This document shows, in pieces, positions 2,792 to 63,415 of a DNA stretch of 64,000 bases (position 1 is the stretch's first letter; the number at the start of each line of letters is the position of its first letter). The position numbers and the translations under genes were made by a program. The notes below the pieces were generated by a model, which searched no databases, was not told where the DNA came from, and worked only from the letters and a program-made list of their open reading frames with translations. Source of the DNA: Rubrivivax gelatinosus IL144. GTDB taxonomy: Bacteria; Pseudomonadota; Gammaproteobacteria; Burkholderiales; Burkholderiaceae_C. The stretch lies in assembly GCF_000284255.1 (NCBI RefSeq), contig NC_017075.1, positions 1,984,001 through 2,048,000 of the forward strand, read 5' to 3'.

Positions 2792-4600
2792 TCACCCCAG
2801 CGCGTAGATCAGCACCGAGTAGGCCCCGACGTTCACCACCGCGCTGGCGCCGAAGCCGTCGTAGGGCTCGTCCTCCGCGACCACCGACTGCGCCTCGTGG
2901 CCGTCGAAATCCGGGCCGTAGACCGGCGCGTCGGAGTTCAGCAGCAGCGTCCAGCGGCCGCCGGTGGGCATGCCGATGCGGTAGTCGCTGCGCGCCTCGT
3001 GGCCGAGGTTGACGACCACGACGACGTCGTCGCCGGGGCCGTGGTCCTGCCAGCGCTGGAAGGCCAGCACGTTGGCGTCGTTGTTCAGGTGGTAGACGTG
3101 GATGTGCTGGCCTTGCAGGCCGCGTGTCTTGCCCGCCAGGTTGCGCCGCAGCGCGATCAGGTCGCGGTACAGGCGCAGGGTGCCGCGGAACTGCTCGCGG
3201 TGGTCCCAGTCCAGCGGCACGTCGTCGCGGAACCAGCCGCCCTGCAGGAACTCCTGGCCCTGGAAGATCATCGGGATGCCCGGCGCCGTGAACACCAGCG
3301 CGGCGGCCGCGGTGGAACGCTTCTGCGCGTGCCAGCCGGTCGGGTCCTCGGGGTTGATGTCCGCCGGCACCCGGGCGCGGCCGTTGGCCACCTCGTCGTG
3401 CGACTCGGTGTAGATCACGCGCTGGAAGGCGTCGTCGTTGTAGCGCGTCTGCAGCGCGTCGCGCACGCGGTGCAGGTCGCGGTGTTCGTCGGCGGCGACG
3501 ATGGCCGCCTCGCGGATCGGGTGCACGAAGGCGCTGTCCCATTGCGCGTGGAAGGCGGCGCCGTGCTCGCCCACCTGTGAGATCTCGGGCAGGTGCTGCA
3601 TGTCCTCGGCGATCAGGATGCGGCCCGGGAACTGCTCGCGCACCGAGGTGTTGATCCAGCGCATCAGGCTCCAGCCGTCGGGGATGTCGTGGCCGTTGCC
3701 GCCGACGCTGCGCATGTACGGCGTCATGTCATAGCGCAGGCCGTCGAGGTGGAAGTCGCGCAGCCACGAGATCGCGTTGTCGTGGATGAAGCGGCGCACC
3801 GCCTCGCGGCCGTAGTCGGGGCGCGTGTCGCCCCAGGGCGTGGACGAACGATCGTCGTTGTAGAAGTAGATGCCGCCCTTGTCGTTCTCGCTCCAGCCGT
3901 CGAAGCGCCAGAGGTCCAGGTCCGACGGGCCGAAGTGGTTGTAGACCACGTCCAGCACCACCGCCAGGCCACGCTGGTGGCAGGCCTTGACGAAGGTCTT
4001 GAAGGCGTCGGGGCCACCGTAGGCCGACTCGACGGCGAAGACGTGCGCCGGGTTGTAGCCCCAGGAATAGTCGCCGGCGAACTCGGCCACCGGCATCACC
4101 TGCACGACGTTGACGCCCAGCTTGACGAGGTGGTCCAGCTTGGCGAGCGCCAGCTCGAAGTTGCCCGGCCGGCCCTCGCCCTCGCGCACGAAGAACGAGC
4201 CGACGTGCAGCTCGTAGATCACCAGCTCGTTGTGGCCGCGGATCTGCGGCTGGTCGTCGCCCCAGTCGAAGGCGGCGTGGTCGTAGATGACGCCGTTGCC
4301 GACCGACGAGGTGACCTGGCGCGCGTACGGGTCGATGCGAAAGAGCTGCTGGCCCGCGTGGTGGATCATGTACTTGTACTCGTGACCGGTGCGGGCCTCT
4401 TCGACGAAGCCGTACCAGTAGCCGTCGGCCTCGGGCTGCAGCGCGTGCGCGTCGGGCGCGAAGCCGTTGAAGTCGCCGGCGACGAACACCGCCTCGGCAT
4501 GCGGCGCCCAGACCCGGAAGGCGCAGCCCTCGGGCGTCGGCAAGGCGCCCATGCCCTCGACGACGGGGCGGACGGACGAAGCGGTGTGGCGGACGTTCAT
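2792..4600 (-). CDS. GH13 alpha-amylase family enzyme, branching-enzyme-like
   Basis: A 602-residue glycoside hydrolase family 13 protein. The ATG at 4600 is preceded by AGGA at good spacing and begins MNVRHTASS. An N-terminal CBM48/isoamylase-type domain (FRVWAPHAEAVFVAGDFNGF) precedes the catalytic barrel. The four GH13 regions are present: DVVYNH near residue 217, GLRYDM with nucleophile D291, LIAEDM with acid/base E332, and ESHDE with D402. The C-terminus is the beta domain typical of branching enzymes and trehalohydrolases. The likely substrate is glycogen or malto-oligosaccharide in the cytoplasm. It is shorter than classical GlgB (about 700 residues), and no glg or tre neighbours help decide. 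A decayed copy of its tail lies at 2031-2114. Confidence 0.8.
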   Translation of the reverse strand: MNVRHTASSVRPVVEGMGALPTPEGCAFRVWAPHAEAVFVAGDFNGFAPDAHALQPEADGYWYGFVEEARTGHEYKYMIHHAGQQLFRIDPYARQVTSSVGNGVIYDHAAFDWGDDQPQIRGHNELVIYELHVGSFFVREGEGRPGNFELALAKLDHLVKLGVNVVQVMPVAEFAGDYSWGYNPAHVFAVESAYGGPDAFKTFVKACHQRGLAVVLDVVYNHFGPSDLDLWRFDGWSENDKGGIYFYNDDRSSTPWGDTRPDYGREAVRRFIHDNAISWLRDFHLDGLRYDMTPYMRSVGGNGHDIPDGWSLMRWINTSVREQFPGRILIAEDMQHLPEISQVGEHGAAFHAQWDSAFVHPIREAAIVAADEHRDLHRVRDALQTRYNDDAFQRVIYTESHDEVANGRARVPADINPEDPTGWHAQKRSTAAAALVFTAPGIPMIFQGQEFLQGGWFRDDVPLDWDHREQFRGTLRLYRDLIALRRNLAGKTRGLQGQHIHVYHLNNDANVLAFQRWQDHGPGDDVVVVVNLGHEARSDYRIGMPTGGRWTLLLNSDAPVYGPDFDGHEAQSVVAEDEPYDGFGASAVVNVGAYSVLIYALG

Positions 4601-4832
4601 GCGTTGTCTTCCTGGAGCGGTTGGAGGCTCGGTGCCCGGCGCCGTGGGCGGCGTGGTGGGCCGGCCCCGGCGAGCTGGCGGCATGCTGACGACGGCTTCG
4701 CCGGCCGCCGGTCGGACAAGGCCCCGGCGGTGCGCAGGACAGCGTGCCTTTGGGGCCCCGATCACCGGCCTGCAGATCAAACCGGGGATTCGCCGCTGTC
4801 GCGGGACGGCGCAACAGCGGACAATCGCGGGT

Positions 4833-5189
4833 ATGGACCTGCATGTGCCGATTACCCTGAACGACGAACTCTCCGACGAGGTCGTCACCGCCACCGCTCG
4901 ACTGAACCTCGCCAGCGGCGAGATTGGTCGCATCGAATACCAGGACTGGGACGTCGCTTCGCGCGGCCTGCCCTGGGAACAGGACGACTACGAGTTCACC
5001 AGCGGCACCTTGTCGAATGCCGGCAAGGACGTCGAGTTCGGCGTCTCCGTGAACCGCACGACGGGCCAGTACTCGGTCAGCGCCGACGAACTGCTGGAGA
5101 TCAAGGTCAAGGCTGCGCAGCTGTTCGCCGGCATCAGCGGCAGCGAACTCGCCTCCGGCGCGCACGGCCGCAACGGGCGCACGCACTGA
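4833..5189 (+). CDS. Hypothetical protein, 118 residues
   Basis: Starts MDLHVPITLNDELSDEVV and ends in a basic, Gly-rich tail (SGAHGRNGRTH). It is acidic in the middle, with no signal peptide, membrane helix or known motif that I can recognise. It is divergent from the GH13 gene and about 300 bases upstream of the borosin-like peptide gene, in the same orientation. The long structured gap argues against a single transcript, but a link cannot be excluded. Codon positions show the strong third-base GC bias of real genes here. Function unknown. Confidence 0.55.
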   Translation: MDLHVPITLNDELSDEVVTATARLNLASGEIGRIEYQDWDVASRGLPWEQDDYEFTSGTLSNAGKDVEFGVSVNRTTGQYSVSADELLEIKVKAAQLFAGISGSELASGAHGRNGRTH

Positions 5190-5489: not shown

Positions 5490-5708
5490 ATGTCGAAGCT
5501 GCTTGATCTGATGCGGAAGCTGGGCAGTGATGCCGCCTTGAACAGCGAGTACGAGCAGGACCCGCAAGCGGTGATCAGCCGTTTCGGCCTGTCCGCCGAG
5601 GAGAGCGCCGCTCTGCTGTCCAAGGACTACGAAGCGATCAAGCGTCTCACCGGCCTCAAGGACGGGCAGTTCGCGACCAACCACACGATCCGCGCCTACG
5701 ACAAGTAG
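5490..5708 (+). CDS. Putative split-borosin RiPP precursor peptide
   Basis: A 72-residue peptide. Residues 1-55 are helical and acidic (MSKLLDLMRKLGSDAALNSE at the start, then DPQAVISRFGLSAEESAALL). They resemble the borosin-binding domain of split-borosin precursors such as SonA and the clasp region fused to fungal OphMA, with the pattern M-S-x-x-L/M, L-x-x-D-x-x-L, F/Y-x-x-D, then L-S/T-x-E-E/Q. The C-terminal tail KDGQFATNHTIRAYDK is the likely core region whose backbone amides would be N-methylated. The start has AGGAAC 12 bases upstream. The methyltransferase fusion gene follows after 24 bases, so the two are almost certainly co-transcribed. No protease or exporter gene is adjacent. The family call is from memory of sequence patterns, not from a search. 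Confidence 0.75.
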   Translation: MSKLLDLMRKLGSDAALNSEYEQDPQAVISRFGLSAEESAALLSKDYEAIKRLTGLKDGQFATNHTIRAYDK

Positions 5709-5732
5709 GCGTCCCAGGCGTCCGACGCCGAC

Positions 5733-8267
5733 ATGCACCGACAGCGGTTCATCGCGGTGCTGTGGCTGGCGCTGGCCGGCCTGCCGGCGTTCGCCAACGA
5801 CGCGCTGGAACCGGAGGTGGCCGCGATCGAGCGGCTGGGCATCAGCGCGAACTGGCGTGAGACGACCGCCCGGATCAAGGCGCTGTCGCCGCAACGGGAT
5901 TCCCTGAGCCGAGAGCAGCGCCAGCGACTGGATTTCGTGCGCCTGCGCGCCCTGGCGCTGTCCGGCGACGAAACCGGTGCGATCGCCGGGTTCGCCGTGC
6001 TGCTGCAGGAGCCGCTTCCGGCGGCGCTGCGCGTGCGCACCTACAGCACCGCCATCAACGTCGCGGCGAACGTCGAGCAATGGGTGCGGGCCTTCACCTG
6101 GCTCGACGAGGCGCTCAGCTATCTGGACGAAGCGCCGGAAGAGTCGGCGCGCCTGCTGGGCGTCGCCAGCTACCTGCACACGCTCGTCGGCGAGCCCGGC
6201 AAGGCCCGTGAACTCGCGCTGCGCGAGCTGGATCTGGTCGACAAGAGCGGCGACGAGCACGCCCGGTGCGTCGCGCTCAGCGACATCGCGATGGCCGAGG
6301 ACTACTCGCACCAGTACCGCGAAGGCGAGCGCTGGCACCGGCGCCAGATCGATGCCTGCATGCGCGCCGGCAACACGATCTTCACCGCCAACGGCAAGTA
6401 CGGCGTGGGCAAGGCGCTGGCCGCCCAGGGGCGCCATGCCGAGGCGCTGGAGTGGGCGTCCCAGGCGATGGCGGAGTTCGGCAAGGCCGGCTACGCCGCG
6501 GGCGAGTGGAGCACGCGGCTGATGCTCGCCGGCAGCCTGATCGAGTCGGGCGGCGACCTCGAGCGCGCCGACCGCCTGCTGGCCGACACCCTGCGCTACT
6601 ACCGTGGCCAGAAGGCCGACACGGCGATCGCCGATACCGAGAACCTGCTGGCGCGCCTGGCCGAGAAGCGTGGCGACCTGGCCGAGGCGCTGGCGCACTA
6701 CAAGCGGGCTACCGAGGCGACGGCGTCGGCCGAGACCGATGCACGCGAGCGTCGACTGGCCTATCTGCAGGTGCAGTTCGACACCCGCCTGAAGGAGCAG
6801 CAGATCGCGCTGCTGCAGGCCGAGAAGGAGCTGGCGACGCTGCAGGTCACGGCGGCCCAGCGCCGGCAGTGGCTGCTGTGGGGCGGCATCGGCGGGCTGC
6901 TGCTGGCCGCCATCCTGCTGACGGTTCTGCTGCGGCACACCATCCGCGAGCGCCGGCGCTACCGCTGGCAGTCCGAGCACGACGGCCTGACCCACCTGTA
7001 CAACTACCAGCAGGTGCGCAAGCTCGGCGAAGCGGCCTTCGCCGAGGCCCGCCGGCGCGGGCGGCCGTTCACCGCGATCGTCGCCGACGTCGACCGCTTC
7101 AAGGGCGTCAACGACCACTTCGGGCACGCCGCCGGCGACGAGACGCTGCGCTCGCTCGGGACCTGGATCGCCGAGGTCGTGGGCGAAGGCGGCATCGCCG
7201 GACGCAGCGGCGGCGACGAGTTCATGATCCTCGTCGACGGCGACGCCTCGAAAGCCGAGGCGCTGCTGCAGCGCCTGCGTGAACGCATCGTGCCGATCAG
7301 CGTCTTCGGCAAGACGGTGCACTTCAGCATCAGCTCCGGCGTCTGCGAGGCCAACGAGCACGTGAGCACGCTGGAGCAGCTGGTGCACGAGGCCGATCAG
7401 GCGCTCTACCGCGCCAAGCACCGCGGCCGCAACCGCGTCGTGCGGGCCGGGGGCGAGGAGCCGGGTCCCGGCCGCCAGGCGGGCCTGGTGGTGGTGGGCA
7501 CCGGCATCGACTTCGGCCGCCACGTCAGCGAACGCTGCCTTTCCGAGATCCGCGAGGCCGAGGTCGTGTTCTGCCTGGTCGACCCTTTCGCGCTGGCGAT
7601 GATCCAGGGCTTCCGGCCGGACGCCATCAACCTGGGCCTGCACTACGCGCCGGGCAAGGACCGGCGCGAAACCTATCGCGAGATCGACGCCCGCATCATG
7701 GCCGAGGTGCGCGCCGGCAAGCGTGTGTGCGCGGTGTTCTACGGCCACCCGGGCGTCTTCGCCGACGTGCCCCACGCGGTGGTGCGCAAGGCGCGCGCCG
7801 AAGGCGTGCCGGCACGCATGGAGCCCGGCATCTCGGCCGAGGCCTGCCTGTACGCCAACCTGGGCATCGATCCGGGCCACCGCGGCGTGCAGTCGATGGA
7901 GGCGACGCACTTCCTGGTCTACGACCGCCAGCTCGACAGCGCCGGGCTGGTGCTGCTGTGGCAGGCGGCGCTGGCCGGCGACCTGAGCTGCACGCGCTTC
8001 CACGCCGAACGCGAGGGTTTGCAGGCGCTGGTGAACAAGCTGCTGCGCTGGTATCCGCCGGATCACGAGGTCATCCTGTACGAGGCGGCGCGGCTGCCGA
8101 TCGAGCAGCCCCGCATGGAGCGCCTGGCCTTGCGCGAGCTGCCCGACGCCCAGTACGCCGAGTACACGACGCTGGTCATCCCGCCGCTGGGCGAGATCGA
8201 GGAAGACGCCGAGATCGCCTTGCTGCGCGAACAGCCCGCGGCCGACAGCTCCGCGGCCGCTCACTGA
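5733..8267 (+). CDS. Membrane TPR-GGDEF protein fused to borosin alpha-N-methyltransferase
   Basis: An 844-residue fusion. Order: signal peptide (1-21, ending AFA), an Ala-rich TPR-like periplasmic region (about 40-335), a coiled coil (335-379), one membrane helix (about 380-400), and a cytoplasmic GGDEF domain with intact RSGGDEF (493-497), predicting diguanylate cyclase activity. Last is a SAM-dependent tetrapyrrole-methylase-fold domain from VVVGTGI (587-592) to about 825. That domain matches the borosin type: YGHPGVF (670-676), ARMEPGISAE (694-703), and Y638, R644, Y648, Y670 at the same spacing as OphMA Y66, R72, Y76, Y98 (numbers from memory). It should N-methylate backbone amides of the peptide encoded just upstream. 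A plain diguanylate cyclase would not need the C-terminal 260 residues. The fusion suggests an envelope signal controlling both c-di-GMP and peptide methylation. Confidence 0.85.
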   Translation: MHRQRFIAVLWLALAGLPAFANDALEPEVAAIERLGISANWRETTARIKALSPQRDSLSREQRQRLDFVRLRALALSGDETGAIAGFAVLLQEPLPAALRVRTYSTAINVAANVEQWVRAFTWLDEALSYLDEAPEESARLLGVASYLHTLVGEPGKARELALRELDLVDKSGDEHARCVALSDIAMAEDYSHQYREGERWHRRQIDACMRAGNTIFTANGKYGVGKALAAQGRHAEALEWASQAMAEFGKAGYAAGEWSTRLMLAGSLIESGGDLERADRLLADTLRYYRGQKADTAIADTENLLARLAEKRGDLAEALAHYKRATEATASAETDARERRLAYLQVQFDTRLKEQQIALLQAEKELATLQVTAAQRRQWLLWGGIGGLLLAAILLTVLLRHTIRERRRYRWQSEHDGLTHLYNYQQVRKLGEAAFAEARRRGRPFTAIVADVDRFKGVNDHFGHAAGDETLRSLGTWIAEVVGEGGIAGRSGGDEFMILVDGDASKAEALLQRLRERIVPISVFGKTVHFSISSGVCEANEHVSTLEQLVHEADQALYRAKHRGRNRVVRAGGEEPGPGRQAGLVVVGTGIDFGRHVSERCLSEIREAEVVFCLVDPFALAMIQGFRPDAINLGLHYAPGKDRRETYREIDARIMAEVRAGKRVCAVFYGHPGVFADVPHAVVRKARAEGVPARMEPGISAEACLYANLGIDPGHRGVQSMEATHFLVYDRQLDSAGLVLLWQAALAGDLSCTRFHAEREGLQALVNKLLRWYPPDHEVILYEAARLPIEQPRMERLALRELPDAQYAEYTTLVIPPLGEIEEDAEIALLREQPAADSSAAAH

Positions 8268-8289: not shown

Positions 8290-8841
8290 TCAGGCCGCCT
8301 TTCGCGCCATGGCCACGCGGTCTTTCAAACCGTGGGCGGACTCGTTGGCCAACGCTGCGCGCAGGTGCTCGAAGCCGCCGTCTGCCACCAGTCGGCGAAA
8401 GCCGTGCCTGCCGTAGAACGGCGCGTTCCACGGCAGGTGGTCGAAGGTGGTGAGGGTGATGACCTCGATGGCGTCGGCGCCTTCGGCTTGAGCGATCGCC
8501 TGCTGCAGCAGCGTCGTGCCGATGCCTCTCCTGCCGGCGTTGGGGTCGACGTCCATCTCGACAACGTGCAGCGCTCTGCCGACCGTCTCGCAGGCCACGA
8601 AGCCGAGGGCAGCGCCGCGCGCGTCTTGTGCGACCCAGACCAGGCCGCCGTCGATGAGCCGCGCCAGTTCCGCTGCCGCCATCGGTTGCGCGAGGGCGGG
8701 CGGAAGATCGCTCGGCGCGAAGATCGAGGCGGCGTCGGCTTCGACGCGCCGCATCACCGGGATGTCTGCGTGCCGGGCCTTGCGCACCGTGACGACGAGC
8801 CGTGCCGATGGAGCTTGCGGGTTGATCGCGCCTGGTGCCAT
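8290..8841 (-). CDS. GNAT-family N-acetyltransferase
   Basis: A 183-residue GCN5-related acetyltransferase. The acetyl-CoA binding signature is visible as VDPNAGRRGIGTTLLQQAIA, followed by the late beta-bulge region PFYGRHGFRRL. The N-terminal 15 residues are poorly conserved in style, and the start could be a few codons later, before TVRKARHADIP. The substrate is unknown; members of this subgroup often act on small amines or proteins. It lies 18 bases downstream of the SAM methyltransferase gene on the same strand and is probably co-transcribed with it. It converges on the borosin-like gene, with 22 bases between the two stops. Confidence 0.8.
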   Translation of the reverse strand: MAPGAINPQAPSARLVVTVRKARHADIPVMRRVEADAASIFAPSDLPPALAQPMAAAELARLIDGGLVWVAQDARGAALGFVACETVGRALHVVEMDVDPNAGRRGIGTTLLQQAIAQAEGADAIEVITLTTFDHLPWNAPFYGRHGFRRLVADGGFEHLRAALANESAHGLKDRVAMARKAA

Positions 8842-62978: not shown

Positions 62979-63324
62979 TGAGACATCGAGCGGCGAATTC
63001 TAGGAATCGTTCGGCTTTTCGTTGGCGCAATTAAGCGGAATATGCATCGCTTTCTTTCCGACCGTTCATTTGCCCGAACTCGCATCATGCAGACCATGCC
63101 GGGTCGGATGGCAGGTGTTTTTCAGGGAATTCATCCGACTCACAATAAATGAAAAGAGCGCGCCGAGATGGTAATTCTGAAACTATCAGTTTTGCCATCT
63201 GATGTCATTCGGAGCGATATCGAAATCTGTCATGCCGTTAAAGAAGAGAACTAGTTCACGTGTCCGAAGCTATCCGCCGGTTACGGCCTGCAACAGCCCG
63301 GACGCCGCGCTTAGCATGCGCCGC

Positions 63325-63415
63325 ATCAGGGCACACCCGTGCGAAAGCCGGGGTCGCAAAGCTTCCGGTCTAACCGTCCCCCCGAGCGGGACGCACGACA
63401 GCGGGGCCGCCGGGC
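63325..63415 (+). promoter_or_regulatory. Cyclic-di-GMP-I (GEMM) riboswitch
   Basis: The core matches the class I aptamer: GGGCACACC, GCGAAAG, then GGGTCGCAAAGC, CCGGTCTAA, a variable hairpin (CCCCGAGCGGG), and ACAGCGGGGCCGCCGGG. The Vc2 RNA from Vibrio cholerae shows the same order (GGGCAAACC, CGAAAG, GGGACGCAAAGC, CCGGCCTAA, GTAGCGGGGTTACCG). It reads towards the fliE-like gene about 500 bases downstream. The remaining gap 62979-63914 has no gene I can support; further hairpins follow it at 63429-63450, 63679-63694 and 63779. Confidence 0.85.

Follow-up and report, generated by a model that had tools for sequence, protein, structure and literature searches.

A split-borosin precursor gene beside a predicted TPR sensor, diguanylate cyclase and borosin methyltransferase fusion in Rubrivivax gelatinosus

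The gene pair and its surroundings

Two neighbouring genes on the forward strand of the Rubrivivax gelatinosus IL144 chromosome encode a small protein of 72 residues and a large multidomain protein of 844 residues. Both open reading frames were found where the preliminary description had placed them, and the order of signal peptide, TPR domain, membrane helix and GGDEF domain that it had proposed for the larger protein is borne out by Pfam, inspection and a structural model. Positions below are those of the window, that is, the whole stretch of 64,000 nucleotides analysed.

5490 to 5708, + strand: precursor gene, 72 aa, of split-borosin type, with a borosin-binding domain (BBD; residues 1 to about 56) and a conserved core tail (about 58-72)
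5658 to 5705, + strand: part of the precursor gene coding for linker and core peptide, assigned by tail conservation, with the core boundary set by analogy with SonA 62-71 (PMC8429565)
5733 to 8267, + strand: fusion gene, 844 aa, with signal peptide, TPR, coiled coil, transmembrane helix, GGDEF and borosin methyltransferase
5733 to 5798, + strand: likely signal peptide, residues 1-22, from a hydrophobic N-terminus seen by inspection; a helix in the model
5820 to 6857, + strand: predicted periplasmic TPR sensor and start of the coiled coil, residues 30-375 (Pfam TPR, AF2 model, fold search)
6864 to 6926, + strand: predicted transmembrane helix, residues 378-398, a hydrophobic stretch seen by inspection
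6966 to 7442, + strand: GGDEF diguanylate cyclase domain (Pfam E 7.6e-35), motif at 7209-7223, without an RxxD I-site
7476 to 8264, + strand: borosin alpha-N-methyltransferase domain, residues 582-844 (SonM E 3.4e-68; Foldseek; catalytic residues)
2792 to 4933, - strand: alpha-amylase/CBM48 family gene, upstream of the pair
8290 to 8841, - strand: GNAT acetyltransferase gene, downstream of the pair

Neither of the last two genes looks like part of the system, and the four flanking open reading frames that were scanned include no protease and no exporter. At the Rfam gathering threshold no c-di-GMP riboswitch precedes the precursor gene; the only Rfam match in the window is a c-di-GMP-I riboswitch aptamer at 63320-63414 (+), with 53 bits against a gathering score of 35. 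The precursor and fusion genes are in the same reading frame, separated by a single TAG. This was considered as a meaningful arrangement and rejected: the frames match in 7 of 27 fused loci of the first survey set described below and the organism's own paralogue, a frequency about the third expected by chance, and the match is thus treated as coincidence.

Within the fusion protein, Pfam recognises TPR_12 (best stretch 181-247), GGDEF (415-568) and TP_methylase (585-786, E 6.3e-19). In the model the predicted transmembrane stretch belongs to a single long helix, residues 316-415, and some 13 poorly conserved residues link the GGDEF domain to the methyltransferase.

A borosin methyltransferase and its precursor

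The C-terminal domain is, by homology, a SonM-like borosin α-N-methyltransferase. Compared with solved structures in the PDB it matches SonM with an E-value of 3.4e-68 and OphMA with about 2e-39, and Foldseek places SonM at all of ranks 1-12. The SonM residues mutated by Miller et al. (Y58, R67, Y71 and Y93; PMC8429565) align in the PDB alignment with Y638, R644, Y648 and Y670 of the fusion, which are invariant in 120 of 120 homologues listed, the organism's own two copies included. The preliminary description had favoured a borosin-type over a cobalamin-type methylase on residue signatures, and had named a better match to CobA/CbiF-type enzymes as an outcome that would count against it; clearly there is none, the best tetrapyrrole methylase reaching 2.7e-5. 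Although the Pfam superfamily match might suggest an ordinary tetrapyrrole (cobalamin or siroheme) methylase joined to a cyclase, this reading has a vanishingly small probability and is refuted at the level of sequence, since SonM stands ahead of CobA-type enzymes by more than 60 orders of magnitude in E-value, the catalytic residues are those of borosin enzymes, without variation, and a SonA-like gene adjoins. NCBIfam tetrapyrrole methylase models score far below their cut-offs on the domain.

The adjoining gene had been taken for a split-borosin precursor, and it is of that type: its product matches SonA (PDB 7ltc chain B) over residues 1-57 with an E-value of 1.3e-7. A separately encoded precursor with a borosin-binding domain, as in split borosins, is seen in the SonA match, in the model, where five helices span residues 3-54, and with the precursor HMM. 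Relatives of the precursor number 256, and its tail is strongly conserved among the 120 homologues listed, with G59 in 120, Y70 in 119 and F61 and N64 each in 114. The interface between BBD and methyltransferase is not readable in an AF2 read-through model, whose pTM is 0.45.

The cyclase and TPR domains

The intact GGDEF motif proposed for residues 493-497 is present, and homologues listed carry GGDEF in 119 of 120 cases and GGEEF in one. With its intact A-site motif the domain is a predicted diguanylate cyclase. None of the 29 scorable fused proteins, among them the organism's own paralogue, has the product-inhibition I-site, and it is absent from 15 of 18 operons of the first set in which the cyclase precedes the methyltransferase. 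It is present in 24 of 29 operons of the reverse order and, in the second set, in 55 of the 65 cyclases that could be scored. Such a distribution hints at a change in cyclase control along this lineage.

The TPR domain (residues 30-375) is modelled with a mean pLDDT of 92.4. Its predicted fold is like that of the pheromone receptors Rap and NprR, although other TPR proteins score equally well or better in the fold search. Core-peptide divergence follows TPR divergence better than it follows GGDEF divergence.

Conserved association with a TPR sensor

Neighbourhoods of SonM-like methyltransferases were surveyed in two sets, which share some species and are not independent. Set 1 comprises 79 loci, the best of 573 and hence biased toward close relatives, searched with HMMs for methyltransferase, GGDEF, TPR and precursor; the count excludes the organism's own paralogue (L003), the short loci L004-L011, and L091. 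Its 82 methyltransferase genes divide into 29 fused to GGDEF, 49 with a GGDEF gene on the same strand within 3 kb, one without and three with less than 3 kb of flank. Thus GGDEF is fused or adjacent in 78 of the 79 informative genes, and TPR proteins adjoin the sole exception (L081). An intact GGDEF or GGEEF motif accompanies 75 of the 78 genes, and the cyclase reading frames of the remaining three are cut or frame-broken; at one locus (L066) a single cyclase serves two methyltransferase genes. Unfused operons run precursor-cyclase-methyltransferase in Wenzhouxiangella, Thiolapillus and Sedimenticola, and methyltransferase-precursor-cyclase in Shewanella, Dyella and Rheinheimera; the cyclase lies downstream in all seven Shewanella loci, from species other than S. 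oneidensis. The precursor HMM built on the fused clade missed many precursors of the Dyella/Rheinheimera type and was iterated, with a last-round cut-off of E 0.01.

Set 2 was order-wide: 70 of 295 genomes were positive with 106 matches, and 100 regions with 104 genes were examined. Automatic scoring gave 70 cyclases, 14 kinases, 15 cases of TPR only, four of none and one too short. On rechecking, two TPR-only cases proved to be kinases cut by a contig end (L152 by Pfam, L166 by an H-box seen on inspection), one scored as none (L156) is a TPR kinase, and at two more (L198, L199) the neighbour is a TPR protein that lacks an output domain and, on inspection, ends in a membrane helix. The 104 genes are thereby accompanied by 70 cyclases, 17 histidine kinases and 15 TPR proteins without a recognised output, with one none and one too short; two of the cyclases (L143, L163) are doubtful, being divergent or fragmentary, and one (L144) is split over two frames. 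The motif of the nearest cyclase is GGEEF in 64 of the 70, GGDEF in one and not found in five, of which one is a fragment and four are degenerate. These four (L104, L105, L107, L108) adjoin borosin methyltransferases in a single genus, and are perhaps receptors rather than enzymes. GGDEF domains occur near the methyltransferase gene at 88.5 per Mb on the same strand and 2.3 on the opposite strand, compared with 10.8 further out on both strands.

Across both sets, a TPR domain is found in 151 of the 157 nearest cyclase or kinase reading frames, and a transmembrane-like stretch before the output domain in 149. The first TPR HMM, which missed diverged sensors, had matched 141 of the 157; the figure of 151 is from its iterated version. 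Of the six without a match, four are fragments (L014, L049, L144, L163) and two (L143, L165) are probably not the partner. At the loci L114-L117, L121, L125, L128, L130, L131, L137 and L140, TPR proteins of about 350-375 aa, often at least two in tandem, adjoin methyltransferase and precursor; those inspected, at L114 and L125, have signal-like N-termini, with no transmembrane helix or output domain seen.

In a class-wide sample the methyltransferase occurs in 9 of 369 genomes. A sensor accompanies it in the present fusion, at L092 (a TPR kinase and a TPR cyclase) and at L094 (a TPR kinase), and at L093 there is a cyclase whose TPR domain is recognised by the analysis HMM but not by Pfam. At the other five of the nine no TPR sensor was recognised, and methyltransferase identity there is 39% or less; a sixth gene without a TPR sensor (L100) came from a family sample. 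These distant cases limit the association to the SonM-like clade rather than to all borosins. In two of the five (L095, L096) an MFS transporter lies directly downstream of the methyltransferase gene.

Distribution and origin of the fusion

A second full copy, a precursor gene and an 847-aa fusion whose methyltransferase domain is 84% identical, lies at about 3.119-3.122 Mb in the same genome, each copy having one precursor. The methyltransferase was found in two strains named Rubrivivax gelatinosus, in none of the five other sampled genomes of the genus and in 2 of 399 genomes of the family sample, the present genome included. The fusion is nevertheless widespread: 307 fusion-sized proteins match the methyltransferase region, and both Pfam domains are present in 120 of 120 listed. 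In the tree the Rubrivivax fusions are placed among those of Lysobacterales (Luteimonas, Pseudoxanthomonas, Dokdonella and others), so that transfer between these lineages is likely. All 31 fused rows lie to the same side of a branch (100/95) nested within the unfused operons of cyclase-methyltransferase order, which fits a single fusion event and with it a Rosetta-stone argument for direct coupling; outside this one clade unfused operons are the rule. Tandem duplications were seen of precursor-fusion units (L021, 679-6762), of methyltransferase genes (L066) and of precursors (L163).

Relation to known systems

RRNPP receptors (Rap, NprR, AimR) are genetically coupled to a small peptide gene; they are cytosolic, and their peptides are unmodified, linear and imported. 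The domain described here resembles their TPR superhelix in size and predicted fold, though other TPR proteins score as well or better. By contrast with RRNPP receptors, it comes after a likely signal peptide and is joined to a transmembrane helix and a cyclase or kinase. Given these two features, seen by inspection and in the model, the fusion may be said to work like an RRNPP receptor without being a member of the group.

The type IV split borosin SonM/SonA of Shewanella oneidensis shares with the present pair the methyltransferase fold, the catalytic residues and a BBD-bearing precursor (PMC8429565). SonM is however a free-standing enzyme of 263 aa, as opposed to a fusion with TPR, transmembrane and GGDEF parts (PMC8429565), and the core tail differs from that of SonA. 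In the RcbA/RcbB pair of Vibrio vulnificus a TPR domain controls a GGDEF cyclase, but the proteins are predicted to be cytoplasmic, the partner is another TPR protein, and the word methyltransferase is absent from the text of the paper (PMC12282931).

The preliminary description knew of no described example of such a fusion. This has to be amended, as a 'GGDEF-sequence-containing domain' is named for borosin architectures in the Figure 1 legend of Xu et al. 2024 (PMC11395268). That architecture shares the presence of a GGDEF domain with the present one, and a GGDEF-borosin fusion is by itself of a known kind and not wholly new. The words TPR, tetratricopeptide, sensor, signaling, transmembrane and c-di-GMP do not occur in the text of that paper (PMC11395268). 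A literature search on borosins with cyclases, kinases or Shewanella biofilm found no report of the wider TPR-sensor pattern; apart from Xu 2024, a single review on ribosomal peptides from marine sources was all that it turned up in the portions available. Imani 2022 and Cho 2022, outside that search, may already note the GGDEF gene. Nothing on borosins was found in the accessible literature on peptide ligands of TPR-GGDEF proteins or on RRNPP systems in Gram-negatives, nor a biological role for bacterial split borosins in the accessible parts of PMC8429565, PMC11285071 and PMC11395268. The fusion is one clade within a larger pattern in which a TPR sensor almost always stands beside a SonM-like methyltransferase, and it is this pattern for which the literature searched gave no precedent.

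Proposed mechanism and alternatives

From the gene pair, its domains, their intact motifs and their conserved association, all of them observed, we arrive at a reading to which we give about even odds (a probability of roughly 0.5): a split-borosin precursor is paired with an enzyme which, in one protein, likely methylates the precursor backbone and is predicted to sense the mature product with its periplasmic TPR domain, so that c-di-GMP synthesis by the GGDEF domain would be set accordingly. The BBD would dock on the methyltransferase domain in the cytosol, where amides of the core would be N-methylated. Once released, the core could cross the inner membrane, either by virtue of its N-methylation or through an exporter encoded elsewhere, and might then bind the TPR superhelix as peptides bind Rap and NprR receptors. 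Binding would alter the dimer geometry, and the change would pass along the coiled coil and transmembrane helix to switch the cyclase. Fusion may serve to hold both dimeric enzymes on one membrane dimer. Peptide, methyltransferase and TPR protein are nearly always neighbours in close relatives, which makes the modified peptide the likely signal read by the TPR protein; that the TPR domain is constant whilst the output can be swapped also argues that it is this domain which reads the peptide. The proposed link between peptide modification and second-messenger signalling, as far as genome comparison can speak to it, is strengthened by these data.

The chief rival, albeit an unlikely one, is a switch confined to the cytosol, in which the precursor is not released and its binding or methylation gates the GGDEF domain without an intermediary, serving as timer or memory, whilst a different periplasmic cue is sensed by the TPR domain. 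The methyltransferase does lie directly behind the GGDEF domain across the short linker, no protease or exporter is encoded in the flanking frames scanned, and the absence of the I-site from all scorable fused proteins may call for another means of cyclase control. However, the constant partner of the methyltransferase is the TPR domain and not GGDEF, the output being in places a kinase or absent; unfused operons prevail outside the one clade; and the core diverges with the TPR domain more than with the cyclase. It is more doubtful still that the TPR sensor and c-di-GMP only regulate a secreted N-methylated natural product aimed at other organisms. Omphalotin A, a borosin from a fungus, is nematocidal (PMC11285071), and the MFS transporter beside two distant methyltransferase genes would suit such a role, but within the clade the core tail hardly varies from genus to genus, unlike that of typical diversified natural products, and there is a single precursor per copy with no exporter in the flanking frames scanned.

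Implications

Extending the preferred reading, of a methylated peptide sensed by the TPR domain, beyond this locus is a more tentative step, which we place somewhat short of even odds. SonM-like bacterial borosins would be peptide signalling systems and not natural-product factories, their N-methylated product acting as ligand of a periplasmic Rap-like TPR receptor with c-di-GMP, phosphorelay or stand-alone outputs. Gram-negatives would thereby have their own equivalent of RRNPP signalling, and in the present case one protein would combine synthase and receptor. With a TPR sensor as constant companion, and a cyclase or a kinase as its possible output, the purpose of bacterial borosins becomes a question for binding and c-di-GMP assays. 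If the reading is true, backbone N-methylation would be a signalling modification, and RiPP chemistry would be linked to a second messenger.
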